Source: Stenotrophomonas sp. 364
GTDB lineage: Bacteria > Pseudomonadota > Gammaproteobacteria > Xanthomonadales > Xanthomonadaceae
Direction: 5' to 3'
Assembly (NCBI RefSeq): GCF_009832905.1
Contig: NZ_CP047135.1
Location: forward strand, 3,760,001-3,824,000
Length of the DNA stretch: 64,000 nt
Shown: in pieces, positions 58,048-63,173 of the stretch
How the letters are laid out: each line of letters opens with the position of its first letter
Numbering within the stretch: position 1 is the first letter of the stretch
The notes under the pieces: model-generated
The model's database searches: none
Seen by the model: the letters and a program-made list of their open reading frames with translations, nothing else
What the model was told of the DNA's origin: nothing
Made by a program: the position numbers and the translations under genes

Positions 58048-59121
58048 TCACGCCGCCTCGCTGATCCGCGCCGCGCGCCGCGCCCGCACCGCCTGGGCCA
58101 GGCTCTCCAGCACGGCCAGCGAGCTGTCCCAACCGATGCAGCCGTCGGTGATGCTCTGGCCGTAGGTCAGCGGCTGGCCGTCGACGAGGTCCTGGCGGCC
58201 GGCGACCAGATGACTCTCGACCATGACGCCGACAATGCGCTCCTCGCCGTTGGCCAGCTGCGCGTTGATGTCGGCGATGACCTTGGGCTGGTTCTCCGGA
58301 TTCTTGCTGCTGTTGGCGTGGCTGGCATCGATCATGATGCGCGCGGCCAGGTGCGACTTGGCCAGCGTCTGGCTGGTCGCCTCCACGTGGTCGGCATCGT
58401 AGTTCGGCGTCTTGCCGCCGCGCAGGATGACGTGGCAATCCGGATTGCCGGCGGTGGCCACGATCGCGGTGCCGCCTTCCTTGGTCACCGATAGGAAGTG
58501 ATGCGGGTTCGAGGCCGCGCCAATCGCATCGGCGGCGATCTTGATGTTGCCATCGGTGCCGTTCTTGAAGCCCACCGGGCACGACAGGCCCGAGGCGAGC
58601 TCGCGGTGCACCTGGCTCTCGGTGGTGCGTGCGCCGATCGCGCCCCAGGCCACCAGGTCGGCGATGTACTGCGGCGAGATCACGTCGAGGAATTCCACGC
58701 CGGCCGGCAGGCCAAGCTTGTTGATGTCACGCAGCAGACCGCGCGCGACGCGCAGGCCCTTGTTGATGTTGAAGCTGCCGTCCAGGTCCGGATCGTTGAT
58801 CAGGCCCTTCCAGCCCACCGTGGTGCGCGGCTTCTCGAAGTACACGCGCATGACGATTTCCAGCTCATCGGCGTAGGCATCGCGCAGCGGCTTGAGGCGC
58901 TGGGCGTACTCGATGGCGGCCACCGGGTCATGGATCGAACACGGGCCGATCACGACGGCGAGGCGGTCGTCGCGGCCGTGCAGGATCTCGTGCAGGGCCG
59001 CGCGCGAGGCGCTGACCGTATCGGAGGCTTCGTCGTCACAGGGCAGCATCGCCAGCAGCTGGGCCGGCGGGGTCAACGGTTCGATCTTGCGGATGCGCAG
59101 GTCATCGGTGTGCGGGGGCAT
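58048..59121 (-). CDS. aroG: 3-deoxy-7-phosphoheptulonate (DAHP) synthase, class I
   Basis: 357 residues. It joins PEP and erythrose-4-phosphate as the first step of aromatic amino acid synthesis. The class I barrel is clear: VVIGPCSIHDP, MRVYFEKPRTTVGWKG, GLPAGVEFLD, GARTTESQ (PEP site), KNGTDGNIKIA, IMIDASHANSSK (metal ligand His) and GVMVESHLVAG. It belongs to the AroF/G/H group, but feedback specificity (Phe, Tyr or Trp) cannot be read with confidence. The upstream region holds a leader peptide and terminator (separate entries) suggesting attenuation control. Confidence 0.96.
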   Translation of the reverse strand: MPPHTDDLRIRKIEPLTPPAQLLAMLPCDDEASDTVSASRAALHEILHGRDDRLAVVIGPCSIHDPVAAIEYAQRLKPLRDAYADELEIVMRVYFEKPRTTVGWKGLINDPDLDGSFNINKGLRVARGLLRDINKLGLPAGVEFLDVISPQYIADLVAWGAIGARTTESQVHRELASGLSCPVGFKNGTDGNIKIAADAIGAASNPHHFLSVTKEGGTAIVATAGNPDCHVILRGGKTPNYDADHVEATSQTLAKSHLAARIMIDASHANSSKNPENQPKVIADINAQLANGEERIVGVMVESHLVAGRQDLVDGQPLTYGQSITDGCIGWDSSLAVLESLAQAVRARRAARISEAA

Positions 59122-59164: not shown

Positions 59165-59194
59165 CAAAAAAGCCGCCAGGTGCGCTGGCGGCTT
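59165..59194 (-). terminator. Attenuator terminator before aroG
   Basis: On the minus strand AAGCCGCCAG-CGCAC-CTGGCGGCTT followed by a run of T residues is a complete Rho-independent terminator only about 45 bases before the aroG ATG, inside the leader region, not at a gene end. It is therefore expected to act as a conditional attenuator. Confidence 0.9.
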
Positions 59195-59218
59195 TCGGGA
59201 ATGCGTCTGAAGCTTTCT

Positions 59219-59299
59219 TCAGGGTGAGCGCATGCCTTCCTCCGCCGGTGGCTTCGGAAAGTAATACCAAAAGTAGGAATTGGCGGGGCGTGCGTTCAT
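59219..59299 (-). CDS. Aromatic leader peptide of aroG (26 aa)
   Basis: A reading frame of 26 codons and a TGA stop. It reads M-N-A-R-P-A-N-S then Y-F-W-Y-Y-F at residues 9-14, then a short polar tail. Six consecutive aromatic codons (Tyr, Phe, Trp, Tyr, Tyr, Phe) followed within 25 bases after the stop by a terminator are the mark of ribosome-stall attenuation. The stop codon lies in a small hairpin (CTGAAG/CTTCAG, 59207-59222). No ribosome binding site is seen; the putative -10 is so near that the message may be almost leaderless. Confidence 0.85.
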   Translation of the reverse strand: MNARPANSYFWYYFPKPPAEEGMRSP

Positions 59300-59308
59300 T
59301 GGGGAGTA

Positions 59309-59336
59309 TTGATAGCACAGCTTGTGTGCGGCGCAA
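59309..59336 (-). promoter_or_regulatory. Candidate promoter of the aroG leader
   Basis: On the minus strand TTGCGC and TATCAA are 16 bases apart (4/6 matches each to consensus), with the leader peptide ATG about ten bases after the -10. It is the only candidate in this gap and fits the attenuator model. Confidence 0.4.
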
Positions 59337-59613: not shown

Positions 59614-59952
59614 TTAGACCGCGTTCCAGCGCTGCTCCGGATTGACCAGCTCGTGGTCCAGATAGACGAACAGATCAATGAGGTCGTCGTCCTGGAGGTG
59701 GGCGACGCTGGACGCTCCGAGCCGCTTCAACTCGCGCGCCACCTCCTGTTCGCAGCCCCGATCGGCAGTGATTCGCACGACATCCATGACCAGCAGCGAG
59801 CGGTCCACGCGACTCAGGCTACGTGGCTCTGTAGGAGAACCGGCATCATTGTCGTTGGCCGCGTCCAAGCCGATCCCCACGCCCGTCGTCCACGGCGAGG
59901 GGGGCTTTGCCTTAGCCAGCAGCTGCCTTACCTGTTCGATCCACTGATTCAC
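59614..59952 (-). CDS. Small phage protein downstream of the repressor
   Basis: 112 residues from a GTG (MNQWIEQVRQLLAKA). It overlaps the 3' end of the repressor gene by about 40 bases in the same direction. The middle is polar, then helical (REVARELKRLGASSVAHL-like pattern). No family recognised. A short peptide resembling its start (DQWLEKVR) appears again just upstream of the repressor gene. Confidence 0.6.
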   Translation of the reverse strand: MNQWIEQVRQLLAKAKPPSPWTTGVGIGLDAANDNDAGSPTEPRSLSRVDRSLLVMDVVRITADRGCEQEVARELKRLGASSVAHLQDDDLIDLFVYLDHELVNPEQRWNAV

Positions 59953-60403
59953 TACCCGACCCCCTGATCCCGCGTGCTGCGGGCTTTGCGAACGCCAATA
60001 CCTGGGCGGACGGCAGACCACTCACCAGGGCGCCGTAGATCAGTGCAACAAGCCTGCCATAGTCCTCTGGCTCCAGCCGCGCTCCGTCTAAGGCCTCCTC
60101 GGCCAACTGGACGGCCAGTGTGATGTCCTCGGGTCGCGCAGGTTGAGACATCCCGCCGGAAGTTGAAGCCGCTGCGCCGACGCCGACCTCGGAAGCGCTC
60201 AGACGTTCGTCGCCTGCCCCGGTGAGCACCCAGTTGGCATTCCACCCGGAAGCGACCAGACCGCTGAGGAACTCCGCATCGGGCAGACGCTCGCCTCGCT
60301 CATAGTTCTGGTAGGTCCGCTTGGCAACGCCCAGACGCTGGGCCATCTCCTCCTGGGTAGATGACGCACGAATGTGCCTTATTCGAACCCCTATCAGGCT
60401 CAT
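59912..60403 (-). CDS. Phage repressor, XRE-type HTH protein
   Basis: 163 residues from the ATG MSLIGVRIRHIR with AAGGAG four bases upstream; an earlier GTG was rejected. An XRE helix-turn-helix at residues 10-60 (SSTQEEMAQRLGVAKRTYQNYERGERLP) is followed by a region with a Gly-rich linker and helical C-terminus. It is transcribed away from the ner-like gene, as a lysogeny repressor is in Mu-like phages. Its operators are probably the palindrome and direct repeat at 60.54-60.58 kb. Confidence 0.85.
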   Translation of the reverse strand: MSLIGVRIRHIRASSTQEEMAQRLGVAKRTYQNYERGERLPDAEFLSGLVASGWNANWVLTGAGDERLSASEVGVGAAASTSGGMSQPARPEDITLAVQLAEEALDGARLEPEDYGRLVALIYGALVSGLPSAQVLAFAKPAARGIRGSGSESVDRTGKAAAG

Positions 60404-60507
60404 TTGCTCCTTTCGCACTTATCCCCCTGAACCGCGAAGCGGCGTACGGCTGCCCGTGAACACGCTTCGCACTTTTTCAAGCCATTGATCGACAAGTATT
60501 TTTTCAC
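60400..60507 (-). CDS. Possible small ORF overlapping the repressor start (35 aa)
   Basis: A GTG-started frame of 35 residues (MKKYLSINGLKKCEACSR...) whose TGA overlaps the ATG of the repressor (ATGA). It carries one CxxC pair and no recognised domain. The overlap suggests coupling, but the region also carries a homologous peptide in another frame, so it may be noise. Confidence 0.3.
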   Translation of the reverse strand: MKKYLSINGLKKCEACSRAAVRRFAVQGDKCERSK

Positions 60508-60620: not shown

Positions 60621-60965
60621 GTGACGGCATTACACCCACCAAAAAAAACCAGCCTTCGTAAAGACTGGCACCCAGCCGAAATCGTGGCACAGCTACACAT
60701 GAAGGGGATTTCCCTTCGTCAGTTGAGCCTGCTCAACGGCTACCGCAACCAGAACAGCTTGGCCAAGGCACTTCACCGCCCCTACCCCCTGGCAGAAGCG
60801 TTGATCGCAGAAGCACTCGGTTTCCCCACTGCCGATATCTGGCCCAGCCGTTACGGACCAGACGGCAGACCCAACCGCAGGCGCGGACCCGCTGTGCTTC
60901 TTCCGCCTGATGCCAAGCCTAGCAGGCTGCGTGGACGCCGCAATCAGGAAAAGGAGGCCAGTTGA
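60621..60965 (+). CDS. ner: Ner/Nlp-family phage regulator
   Basis: 114 residues from a GTG. The pattern KDWHPAEIVAQLHMKGISLRQLS ... LAKALHRPYPLAEALIAEALGFPTADIWPSRY is the Ner/Nlp helix-turn-helix family, and its end (IWPSRY) is characteristic. In Mu, Ner turns down early transcription. A basic tail (RRGRRNQEKE) follows. It is the first rightward gene after the operators. Confidence 0.92.
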   Translation: MTALHPPKKTSLRKDWHPAEIVAQLHMKGISLRQLSLLNGYRNQNSLAKALHRPYPLAEALIAEALGFPTADIWPSRYGPDGRPNRRRGPAVLLPPDAKPSRLRGRRNQEKEAS

Positions 60966-61169
60966 TGGATCGGGTGCCCGGGATTCTGAACATACCCGCT
61001 TTCGCATGACATCCGCCGCTCGCCTGTCGCGGCATGGGCCGCACCCGGGGCGACGCGATCAACCAGCGCACGGCTGGGCCACGCGCACCGCTTGCCCGCC
61101 TGACACATCCGGTGCGCCCGCGTGATCCCCCCAATTTCGTCCACCCGCTCCCGCAGGAGGTGCCCGCGC

Positions 61170-63173
61170 ATGTCCGATCAGCCCAACGAAGCACTGTTTG
61201 ACCTGGCGACGATCGCCAGCGCCCTGTCCGTGTCCAAGCGTGCCGCGGAAATGCGTGCGGCCAAGGACGCATGGGTCTACCAGAGCCGCAGCGTCCGCGG
61301 TGGAAGCAAACGTTACTACGCCGTCTCCGCGCTTCCGGCGCAGGTGCAGGCTGCCTTGTACCTGCATATCGGAGCGCGGCCTGCAGACGTACCGATCCTA
61401 CCGCCGCCGCGTGTGACCCGCTCCCGGAAAGTTGCCCCGGGCCAGGCCCATATCATGTCCGCCTGGCAGCGATACGAGGCCCTGCCGGAATCGCGCAAAG
61501 CCATCGCGCACCAGCGCCTGCGCGCCCTGCAGGCGGTCGAGAGCCTAGTCGCTGACGGTACCGCACTGATGGAAGCACGGCGCCTGGTGGTTGCCCGACT
61601 GCGAACCGAAGGGGTGCGCGGTGGGTCCATGGCCAGCCTGGGGCGCTGGGCCGCGGAGGTAAACGGGGTGGAGAAACAGCATCGCCTTGCCCTGCTGGTG
61701 CCGCACTATGTGGGACGTACCAGCATGGTCAGCATCCCGCCCGATGCGTGGGACCTGTTCAAGTCGGACTACCTGCGTGTGGAGGCGCCGACGGCCACCA
61801 GTTGCTATGAGCGCGTCCAGCGTGTCTGCGCCGCACGCGGCTGGCCGGCGATTCCGTCGCTGAAAACCTTCGAGCGCAGAATCAGGGCCGAAATGCCGCC
61901 CGCAGCACTGATTCTGGCCCGGCAAGGTCGCCAGGCGCTGGCGCGAGCATTCCCGGCACAACAGCGCGACCGTTCGATGTTCCGTGCTTTGGAAGCAGTG
62001 AACGCGGATGGCCACCGCTTCGATGTATTCGTGCGGTGGCCCGATGGAAGCATCGCGCGGCCGGTGATGATCGGCGTACAGGACCTGTACTCGGGAAAGT
62101 TGCTCGGGCACCGCGTCGCGGCAACGGAGTCGGCGGATCTGGCGCGCCTCGCTTTCCGCGATGTCGTGGCGCGCTATGGCATCCCGGAAAAGGTCTGGCT
62201 GGACAACGGTCGCGGCTTTGCCAGCAAGCTGCTGACCGGCGGCGCGCCGAATCGGTTCCGCTTCAGGATCCAGCCCGATGACCCCATCGGGGTGCTGACC
62301 AGCATGGGCTGTGAAGTGCACTGGGCCTCGCCTTATCACGGGCAAGCCAAACCCATCGAGCGTGCCTGGCGCGATCTCTGCGACCGCGTTGCCCGACATC
62401 CGGCCTGTGCCGGCGCCTACACCGGCAATACGCCCACGGCCAAGCCGGAAAACCATGGCAGCCGTGCCGTCGCGCTGGACGACTTCATCCGCCTGGTGGA
62501 CACCGAAGTGCTTGCCCACAACGCACGCGAAGGCCGGCGCAGTCGTGTCTGCGGGGGGCAGCGAAGCTTCGACCAGGCCTTCGCGTCCAGCTACCAGCAG
62601 TTCCCGGTGCGACGGGCGACGGGCGAGCAGCTGCGCCAGCTGATGCTGGCTGCCGAGCGGGTCACCAGCGACCCACGCGATGGCTGCGTGCGCCTGGGTG
62701 GAAACCGGTACTGGTCCGCCTCCATCGCCCGCCATGCCGGCCAGAAGCTGATGCTGCGCTTCGATCCGGAACAGTTACACGCCAGCATAGAGGTCTATGC
62801 CCTGTCCGGCGTCCATTTGGGAACGGCCGAGTGCATTGCCGCCGTCGGCTTTGCCGACACCGACGCAGCGCGTGAACACGCCCGGGCAAAACGGCAGTTC
62901 GTGCGAGCCGCCAAGCAACAGCTCGCCGCCGAACGTCGCATGAAAGTGGCCAGCGTCGCCGCGCAGCTGCCCGGCCCGATCCCTGAAACCCTGCCACCAC
63001 CAGGCGTGGTGGCCCCACTTTTCGGCCAGGCACGGGCAAGGTCCGCAGCCCCCGCTCCCCTGCGCGCCACCGGCACCGACTCCGACCGCCACCAGGCCTT
63101 CAGCAGCCTGATGGAGAGGCTGGCCAACCAACACGCGCCGCCGCAGCGCCGCCCACCCGACCAGAACGAATGA
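61170..63173 (+). CDS. Mu-type DDE transposase (gene A)
   Basis: 667 residues from the ATG MSDQPNEALFD with AGGAGG nine bases upstream. Residues 1-65 are the N-terminal winged-helix MuA domain (LATIASALSVSKRAAEMRAAK). The catalytic core has the DDE residues: D in ALEAVNADGHRFDVF, D in VWLDNGRGF and E in AKPIERAWRD. The C-terminal part has the beta-barrel and MuB-binding region (RLGGNRYWS ... KLMLRFDPEQLH). It cuts and joins phage ends in replicative transposition. The usual MuA length is 663. Confidence 0.96.
   Translation: MSDQPNEALFDLATIASALSVSKRAAEMRAAKDAWVYQSRSVRGGSKRYYAVSALPAQVQAALYLHIGARPADVPILPPPRVTRSRKVAPGQAHIMSAWQRYEALPESRKAIAHQRLRALQAVESLVADGTALMEARRLVVARLRTEGVRGGSMASLGRWAAEVNGVEKQHRLALLVPHYVGRTSMVSIPPDAWDLFKSDYLRVEAPTATSCYERVQRVCAARGWPAIPSLKTFERRIRAEMPPAALILARQGRQALARAFPAQQRDRSMFRALEAVNADGHRFDVFVRWPDGSIARPVMIGVQDLYSGKLLGHRVAATESADLARLAFRDVVARYGIPEKVWLDNGRGFASKLLTGGAPNRFRFRIQPDDPIGVLTSMGCEVHWASPYHGQAKPIERAWRDLCDRVARHPACAGAYTGNTPTAKPENHGSRAVALDDFIRLVDTEVLAHNAREGRRSRVCGGQRSFDQAFASSYQQFPVRRATGEQLRQLMLAAERVTSDPRDGCVRLGGNRYWSASIARHAGQKLMLRFDPEQLHASIEVYALSGVHLGTAECIAAVGFADTDAAREHARAKRQFVRAAKQQLAAERRMKVASVAAQLPGPIPETLPPPGVVAPLFGQARARSAAPAPLRATGTDSDRHQAFSSLMERLANQHAPPQRRPPDQNE

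Follow-up and report, generated by a model that had tools for sequence, protein, structure and literature searches.

The DAHP synthase gene aroG of Stenotrophomonas sp. 364 is preceded by a short open reading frame (ORF) crowded with codons for aromatic amino acids, and the question raised by this locus is whether the two are joined by a regulatory switch, and if so, which amino acids the switch would sense. The locus was studied in a window of 64,000 nucleotides, the whole stretch of DNA analysed, which comprises positions 3760001-3824000 of the single-contig 4.84 Mb genome. Judged from the sequence, the region would be a ribosome-mediated transcription attenuator of aroG sensing Phe, Tyr and Trp, a reading to which we assign a probability of about 0.85. 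Its parts, in the order of transcription, are as follows:

59331..59336, minus strand: -35-like TTGCGC, 16 nt before the -10, read from the sequence; TTG is enriched nearby in 121 distinct order-level upstream sequences
59308..59314, minus strand: -10-like TATCAAT, at near-fixed spacing in 121 distinct sequences
59219..59299, minus strand: leader ORF of 26 codons, MNARPANSYFWYYFPKPPAEEGMRSP, with stop TGA at 59221-59219, read from the sequence and kept in relatives
59258..59275, minus strand: regulatory codons TAC TTT TGG TAT TAC TTT (Y F W Y Y F), read from the sequence
59237..59259, minus strand: local hairpin UUCC-GAA-GCC-ACC-GGC-GGA-GGAA from the minimum free energy fold, which sequesters part of region 2 and is a candidate protector
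59242..59246, minus strand: region 2 core GGCGG, which lies within the ORF and starts 14 nt downstream of where the last aromatic codon begins
59201..59233, minus strand: extra antiterminator helices from predicted folds, ATGCG (59233-59229) with CGCAT (59205-59201), enclosing CTGAAG (59222-59217) with CTTCAG (59212-59207)
59166..59195, minus strand: intrinsic terminator, made of region 3 AAAGCCGCCAG (59195-59185), loop CGCAC, region 4 CTGGCGGCTTT (59179-59169) and a T run to 59166
58048..59121, minus strand: aroG, class I DAHP synthase of 357 aa, matching NCBIfam NF006723 (above its cut-off) and TIGR00034

The original prediction of a 26-codon ORF with six successive aromatic codons was borne out (ORF at 59299-59219 and run at 59275-59258, minus strand). 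Base composition gives an expected number of such six-codon runs of 1.6e-6 in 250 nt and of 0.06 in the genome, both strands counted, and the six frames of the window held only two runs of at least five aromatic codons, YFWYYF and WWWWW (42322, plus strand). The latter is a TGG repeat lying out of frame within a long ORF, read by us as a helicase gene.

Conservation of the run in related genomes was one point on which the original prediction could have failed, and it did not fail there. Upstream regions of aroG were collected from the genus, family, order and named relatives; of the 90 genomes of the genus that have aroG, 70 were covered, as were all 73 matches of the order from outside the genus. 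The resulting order-level set comprised 148 loci (6 from the own genome or named relatives, 142 from the genus, family and order searches) with a few duplicates; L002 and L110, for instance, represent a single stretch, and the 147 order-level loci with a leader correspond to 142 distinct upstream sequences. The aromatic leader, run included, and the terminator were found in 147 of the 148. The only genome of the order sample with aroG yet without the leader was G303 (locus L208), whose upstream region looks replaced, and three additional named loci from Rhodanobacteraceae (L024, L027 and L035) also carried the leader.

Codons for Phe, Tyr and Trp were all present in each of the 121 distinct order-level leaders tested, making this an ORF rich in codons for the products of the pathway and supporting the suggestion that all three amino acids are sensed; among 37 distinct leaders from outside the order, 14 lacked Trp. 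The order of residues in the run differed among order-level leaders (FYFWYYF, YFWYYF, FYWYYF, YFWFYGY). Phe was encoded by TTT at 261 of 302 positions in these leaders (41 TTC), against 3 of 61 in four genes of the window (58 TTC), a preference that may serve to prevent structure in the run or to make stalling sharper.

Between the leader ORF and the structural gene lies a conserved intrinsic terminator (59195-59166), its 11 bp stem free of mismatches and showing two-sided change at three pairs among 26 relatives. The perfect terminator that had been predicted ahead of aroG was thereby confirmed, at a distance of 44 bases from the T run to the aroG ATG (59121). A simple fixed-rule scanner reported neither promoter nor terminator for the leader, a silence taken as a limit of its fixed rules because the stem runs into the T tract. 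When compared to Rfam 15, no family scored above threshold at the leader (11 loci of alpha-, beta- and gammaproteobacteria); Phe_leader (RF01859), whose gathering score is 55, reached 21.6 bits, with the match on the terminator part.

The GGCGG of region 2 lies within the leader ORF and is able to pair with the CCGCC of the 5' arm of the terminator (region 3), a pairing that would exclude the terminator. For the counts that follow, a table of 192 leaders was used, from which L054-L081 were omitted except L059, L064 and L070, and from which loci were dropped if no stretch of seven residues held at least four aromatic ones (including L025, L042, L043, L050 and L208); its row for L046 refers to a wrong ORF, the true leader being located farther upstream. 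GGCGG occurred within the ORF in 187 of the 192. Over all 192, its distance from the nearest preceding aromatic codon was 14 nt in 148, 11 nt in 15, 17 nt in 8 and 20 nt in 11, with 10 elsewhere or not found. In a recount that avoided circular location by the GGCGG letters, the last aromatic codon was taken from the peptide alone; the distance from the first base of that codon to the start of GGCGG was then exactly 14 nt in 98 of 104 distinct order-level ORFs and in 15 of 40 others. The residue five codons past the last aromatic codon was Ala in 99 of the 104 and 16 of the 40, encoded by GCG every time both within and outside the order and, within the order, preceded by G every time, whereas the residue before it varied freely (L, P, Q, T, M, R, W, S, K). 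As GCG is fixed even though GCC is the commoner Ala codon in four genes of the window (151 GCC, 102 GCG), and as the preceding residue is variable, it is the bases and not the residues that are kept. Read from these sequences, the register of region 2 is strict within the order and looser outside.

Two alternative pairings had been proposed, and the evidence favours the one that joins CCGGCGG to CCGCC in the 5' arm of the terminator. Among 158 distinct leaders, defined as those with GG(C/T)GG after at least three aromatic codons and used for the pairing, residue, hairpin and mask counts, GGCGG could be aligned to CCGCC in 155, although the five core pairs are certain by construction because the alignment is anchored on these two motifs, and only the outer pairs are informative. 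In 120 order-level leaders, outer pairs were formed at position -1 in 62, -2 in 107, -3 in 60 and -4 in 73; the leader of Stenotrophomonas sp. 364 forms the five core pairs, a mismatch (position -1) and one further pair. The outer pairs changed together in some lines (CCGGCGG with CCGCCGG, GAGGCGG with CCGCCTC). The energy of cognate 2:3 combinations was -15.72 kcal/mol, compared to -15.36 for swapped ones and -15.70 for the best of 2000 permutations, a slight covariation, as expected because the core is invariant and anchored; for a single leader, a random synonymous region 2 pairs equally well about 1 time in 5. The other proposed pairing, AAGCCACCGG with the 3' arm of the terminator, is possible in part (5.7 of its 7 pairs form on average, and the full set in 25 of 121 leaders) but weaker, and is probably not the antiterminator because AAGCCACCGG would lie under a ribosome stalled on the final aromatic codon.

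The local hairpin had TCC/GGA and GCC/GGC as consensus pairs in a model of 26 leaders, and its motif was present in 93 of 121 order-level leaders and 1 of 37 others. A candidate region 1 near the N-terminus (CGCC right before the aromatic run) paired with region 2 no better than synonymous chance and was dropped, as synonymous recoding does equally well.

A ribosome covers 12 nt past the first base of its A-site, and this footprint was used in folding computations that the original prediction had named as a check. In the main scan, RNA up to the footprint edge was barred from pairing and the transcript ended just past region 3. With the ribosome masked within the run, the 2:3 pairing was preferred: its mean probability, P(2:3), over 120 order-level leaders was 0.95-0.99 for A-sites from six codons before through the last aromatic codon, falling to 0.47 one codon past the run and 0.05 two past, and 36 other leaders gave a plateau of 0.93-0.97 followed by 0.76 and 0.36. 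Control leaders with a synonymous region 2 reached plateaus of 0.72-0.84 (order) and 0.66-0.81 (others), with 0.03 two codons past (order). Geometry dictates where the fall occurs, and the computation adds that 2:3 is the preferred predicted fold when region 2 is free. Before region 4 exists, P(2:3) was 0.45 for order-level and 0.63 for other leaders without a ribosome, and 0.40 and 0.48, respectively, with the ribosome at the stop. The 14-nt register and the mask scan together indicate that a stalled ribosome would free region 2 and an advancing one would cover it. The extra helices, seen in predicted folds of the own leader and of L094 with the ribosome masked, include the leader stop codon in the CTGAAG/CTTCAG helix.

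When pairing across the ribosome was allowed, the last run codons became less clear than in the main scan: P(2:3) exceeded 0.5 at the first run codon in all 19 examples and at the last aromatic codon in 11 of them, and the own leader gave 0.88-1.00 for Y9-W11 and 0.03-0.04 for Y12-F14. In our judgement, a helix spanning a ribosome is unlikely. With region 4 present, the terminator was the more stable structure under a first-codon stall in 12 of 15 examples (by 3.7-11.2 kcal/mol; own leader 9.7) and under a last-codon stall by at least 4.0 kcal/mol in 10 of 15 (own leader 6.5); the antiterminator was the more stable one even with region 4 under a first-codon stall in L016 (Caballeronia), L037 (Bradyrhizobium) and L045 (Mesorhizobium). 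Since the terminator usually wins at equilibrium, the switch would have to be kinetic.

The original prediction also placed a -10 element before the start codon, saw no ribosome binding site and considered the leader possibly leaderless, and the comparison supports each of these points. A start site 6-7 nt past the -10 would coincide with the leader ATG or lie no more than about 3 nt away from it, and the near-fixed distance of the -10 and -35 elements thus points to a transcript start at or beside the ATG; the rhizobial leaders L037 and L045 have CTATAT at a similar distance. Shine-Dalgarno-like 4-mers in the window from -17 to -4 were found before none of 86 distinct order-level leader starts, compared to 48 of 65 aroG starts, the latter counted at loci whose match begins at a start codon. 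In the 40 nt before the leader they were found in 7 of 119, and a comparison over unequal windows gave 0 of 121 for the leader (14 nt) and 100 of 123 for aroG (40 nt). The absence of Shine-Dalgarno motifs from the 86 windows suggests that the leader is translated leaderless.

From the parts, their conservation and their spacing, all read from the sequences, we infer the following course of events. RNA polymerase would start at or beside the leader ATG, and a ribosome would load on the near-leaderless transcript. If charged tRNA for Phe, Tyr or Trp were short, this ribosome would stall in the aromatic run, its leading edge stopping just before GGCGG and leaving region 2 free to pair with the CCGCC of region 3 as it is made, and the polymerase would continue into aroG. 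When all three are plentiful, the ribosome would cover region 2 up to the stop, the terminator would form and aroG would be off. Without a ribosome, the local hairpin may hold region 2 in the Stenotrophomonas genus.

It is possible, though in our view unlikely, that the attenuator in practice answers to one or two amino acids, e.g. Phe and Tyr, with the other codons neutral. The aroR leader of Corynebacterium glutamicum, with its Phe-Tyr-Phe, is reported in the review PMC11802643 to answer to Phe and not to Tyr, and more than a third of the leaders outside the order (the 14 of 37 given above) do without Trp. Position in the run may also matter, as late codons freed region 2 less in 8 of 19 examples, the own leader included, when pairing across the ribosome was allowed; with RNA behind the ribosome barred from pairing, all positions of the run allowed 2:3 about equally. 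It also speaks for a response to all three that every one of the 121 distinct order-level leaders holds the three residues despite their varying order.

A constitutive terminator with a short ORF tuning aroG output, a general sensor of translation without amino acid specificity, would account for the thermodynamic dominance of the terminator in most examples, and any stalled ribosome would suffice for it. We regard it as improbable, given that an aromatic run is kept before an aromatic-pathway gene across alpha-, beta- and gammaproteobacteria and that the register from run to region 2 is strict within the order. Slightly less probable still is that the leader peptide or the terminated RNA of about 130 nt acts in trans, like peTrpL/rnTrpL, with the role in cis being secondary: the terminated leaderless attenuator RNA of Sinorhizobium meliloti is reported to act in trans (parts of PMC10117765 and PMC7298713), but here the residues around region 2 vary while the bases are fixed, and all 30 inspected loci adjoin aroG, as a cis element requires. 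The idea that the run in the ORF arose by chance, with a terminator that serves something else, draws on nothing more than the small size of the ORF and the silence of the scanner, and with an expectation of 1.6e-6 and a conserved run it can practically be dismissed.

An attenuator of aroG reading all three amino acids shares the four-region logic of ribosome-mediated attenuation with the enterobacterial trpL, pheL and pheST leaders (Rfam Trp_leader, Phe_leader), which, unlike it, each serve one amino acid. In the classical trp scheme, region 2 lies at or past the leader stop. In enteric bacteria, entry into the aromatic pathway is controlled by three DAHP synthases and two repressors. Closer in target is the aroR-aroF attenuator of C. 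glutamicum (Neshat et al. 2014), in which, according to the portion seen of the review PMC11802643, transcription of a DAHP synthase gene rises when ribosomes stall on the aromatic codons of a leader peptide ahead of it; it differs, by description only, in its Phe-Tyr-Phe motif and Phe response, in that no Trp is named and in its Gram-positive host. The uORFC-13-1 motif before aroF, with 24 representatives from Acholeplasma and environmental sequences only, likewise combines a short ORF (at least one Phe codon), a terminator and possible promoter boxes before a DAHP synthase gene, but involves Phe only, a contrast of description and not of structure (part of PMC8632094). The rnTrpL/trpL attenuator RNA of S. 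meliloti starts with the AUG of its leader ORF (PMC10117765 and PMC7298713, in part) and would share the leaderless start with the aroG leader; it is specific for Trp and lies before trpE(G). In the sections available, PMC2659441 includes Shewanella aroF and aroH in a list of genes predicted to be RNA-regulated, and the aroG leader is not described there or in those of PMC2965389, PMC1262725 and PMC4117421. The literature searched yielded no paper on the aroG leader; Vitreschak 2004 and Panina 2001 may mention related leaders, and absence from print is not claimed.

The kind of element, a leader-peptide attenuator before a DAHP synthase gene, is thus already known, and what the literature searched did not show is this variant of it: three amino acids in one leader, an antiterminator within the ORF at an order-strict register, and wide co-inheritance with aroG. 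Taken further, we lean slightly towards the view that it represents a widespread family of leaderless attenuators (unmatched by Rfam 15 in the scanned stretches and not found in the literature searched), inherited across alpha-, beta- and gammaproteobacteria together with one aroG clade; in this family one ribosome would serve as a three-amino-acid OR gate at an entry of the shikimate pathway, with the order-strict 14-nt register to the in-ORF antiterminator. One short RNA seems to control aroG by joint reading of Phe, Tyr and Trp tRNA charging, which makes it a clean case in which to study the integration of several amino acids by one leader, the timely loading of a ribosome on a leaderless transcript and the precision with which its leading edge must be placed.

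The distribution of the element was followed with a covariance model, R1, built from 26 order-level leaders, which can be used directly to annotate the leaders of aroG in Stenotrophomonas, Xanthomonas, Burkholderiales and Rhizobiales. Among 299 genomes of the order, full-length matches at E < 1e-10 were found in 91 of the 92 with an AroG match (1e-100), several of which had trained the model, and in none of the 207 without. Weaker matches (E 5.6e-7 to 0.01) occurred in 51 of these 207; among the matches listed, most covered the terminator part and a few the whole model. Outside the order, from which no training sequences were drawn, R1 detected 40 of 72 aroG loci at E < 1e-4, including those of Devosia (84 bits), Methylosinus (73 bits), Bradyrhizobium, Mesorhizobium, Burkholderiaceae and Oxalobacteraceae, and none of the Enterobacterales, Vibrionaceae or Rhodocyclaceae loci of this set. 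In genome-wide searches regardless of aroG (E up to 1e-6), 5 of 369 genomes of the class (4 from the own family) and 39 of 398 of the phylum (7 from the own family) were positive. Forty genomes were matched in these searches, and the loci of 30, besides the own, were inspected: aroG lay downstream on the same strand in 30 of 30 (24 of them outside the order), at 36-132 nt from the leader in 29, the exception being L251, truncated by the contig end, with the leader at 1509 and aroG at 1743.

In a tree of 82 AroG proteins, 49 of the 50 leader-bearing ones fell in one group of 55, separate from the enteric and Vibrio proteins, and the leader label required 5 changes compared to 25.6 in shuffles; support for the fork of this group was 93/94, below the starred level. 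This grouping fits joint inheritance of leader and gene, and a single origin is likely, not proven. The loci L053, L038 and L070 were labelled as lacking an R1 leader yet hold aromatic ORFs that R1 missed or scored weakly. The last of these, from an Anaerolineae (Chloroflexota) MAG, has an aromatic-rich short ORF (MSRYFSFFSWYGYFAAGQ...) at about 1295-1385 before an AroG relative, where no T-run terminator was found by script. In Undibacterium (L046, 894-1031), a leader, MKQVVFFFFFYFSYSRPKAVGRR, and terminator lie about 470 nt before aroG, and the intervening sequence may be an insertion. A tandem pair of glycine riboswitch aptamers was seen near aroG in another relative (L104:3483-3689, minus strand).

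Within the genome of Stenotrophomonas sp. 364, R1 gave a single strong full-length match plus six weak matches (E 0.0025 to 1.2); of these six, one is the same terminator on the opposite strand and another, the sole further one inspected, lies within a coding-like stretch. That aroG is the sole DAHP synthase gene was considered and rejected, as a class II enzyme is also encoded (genome positions 570251-571555, L231); the 800 nt upstream of the class II gene contain no short ORF with at least three aromatic residues in seven. A second PF00793 match was also seen. A region that we labelled Mu-like phage (59410-63173) starts shortly upstream of the aroG promoter and encodes a transposase (61122-63173, plus strand; phrog_310, E 5.5e-148), a repressor (60621-60965, plus strand; phrog_769) and an HTH regulator (59912-60418, minus strand). 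DNA similarity with 29 relatives from the genus ends between 59357 and 59410.
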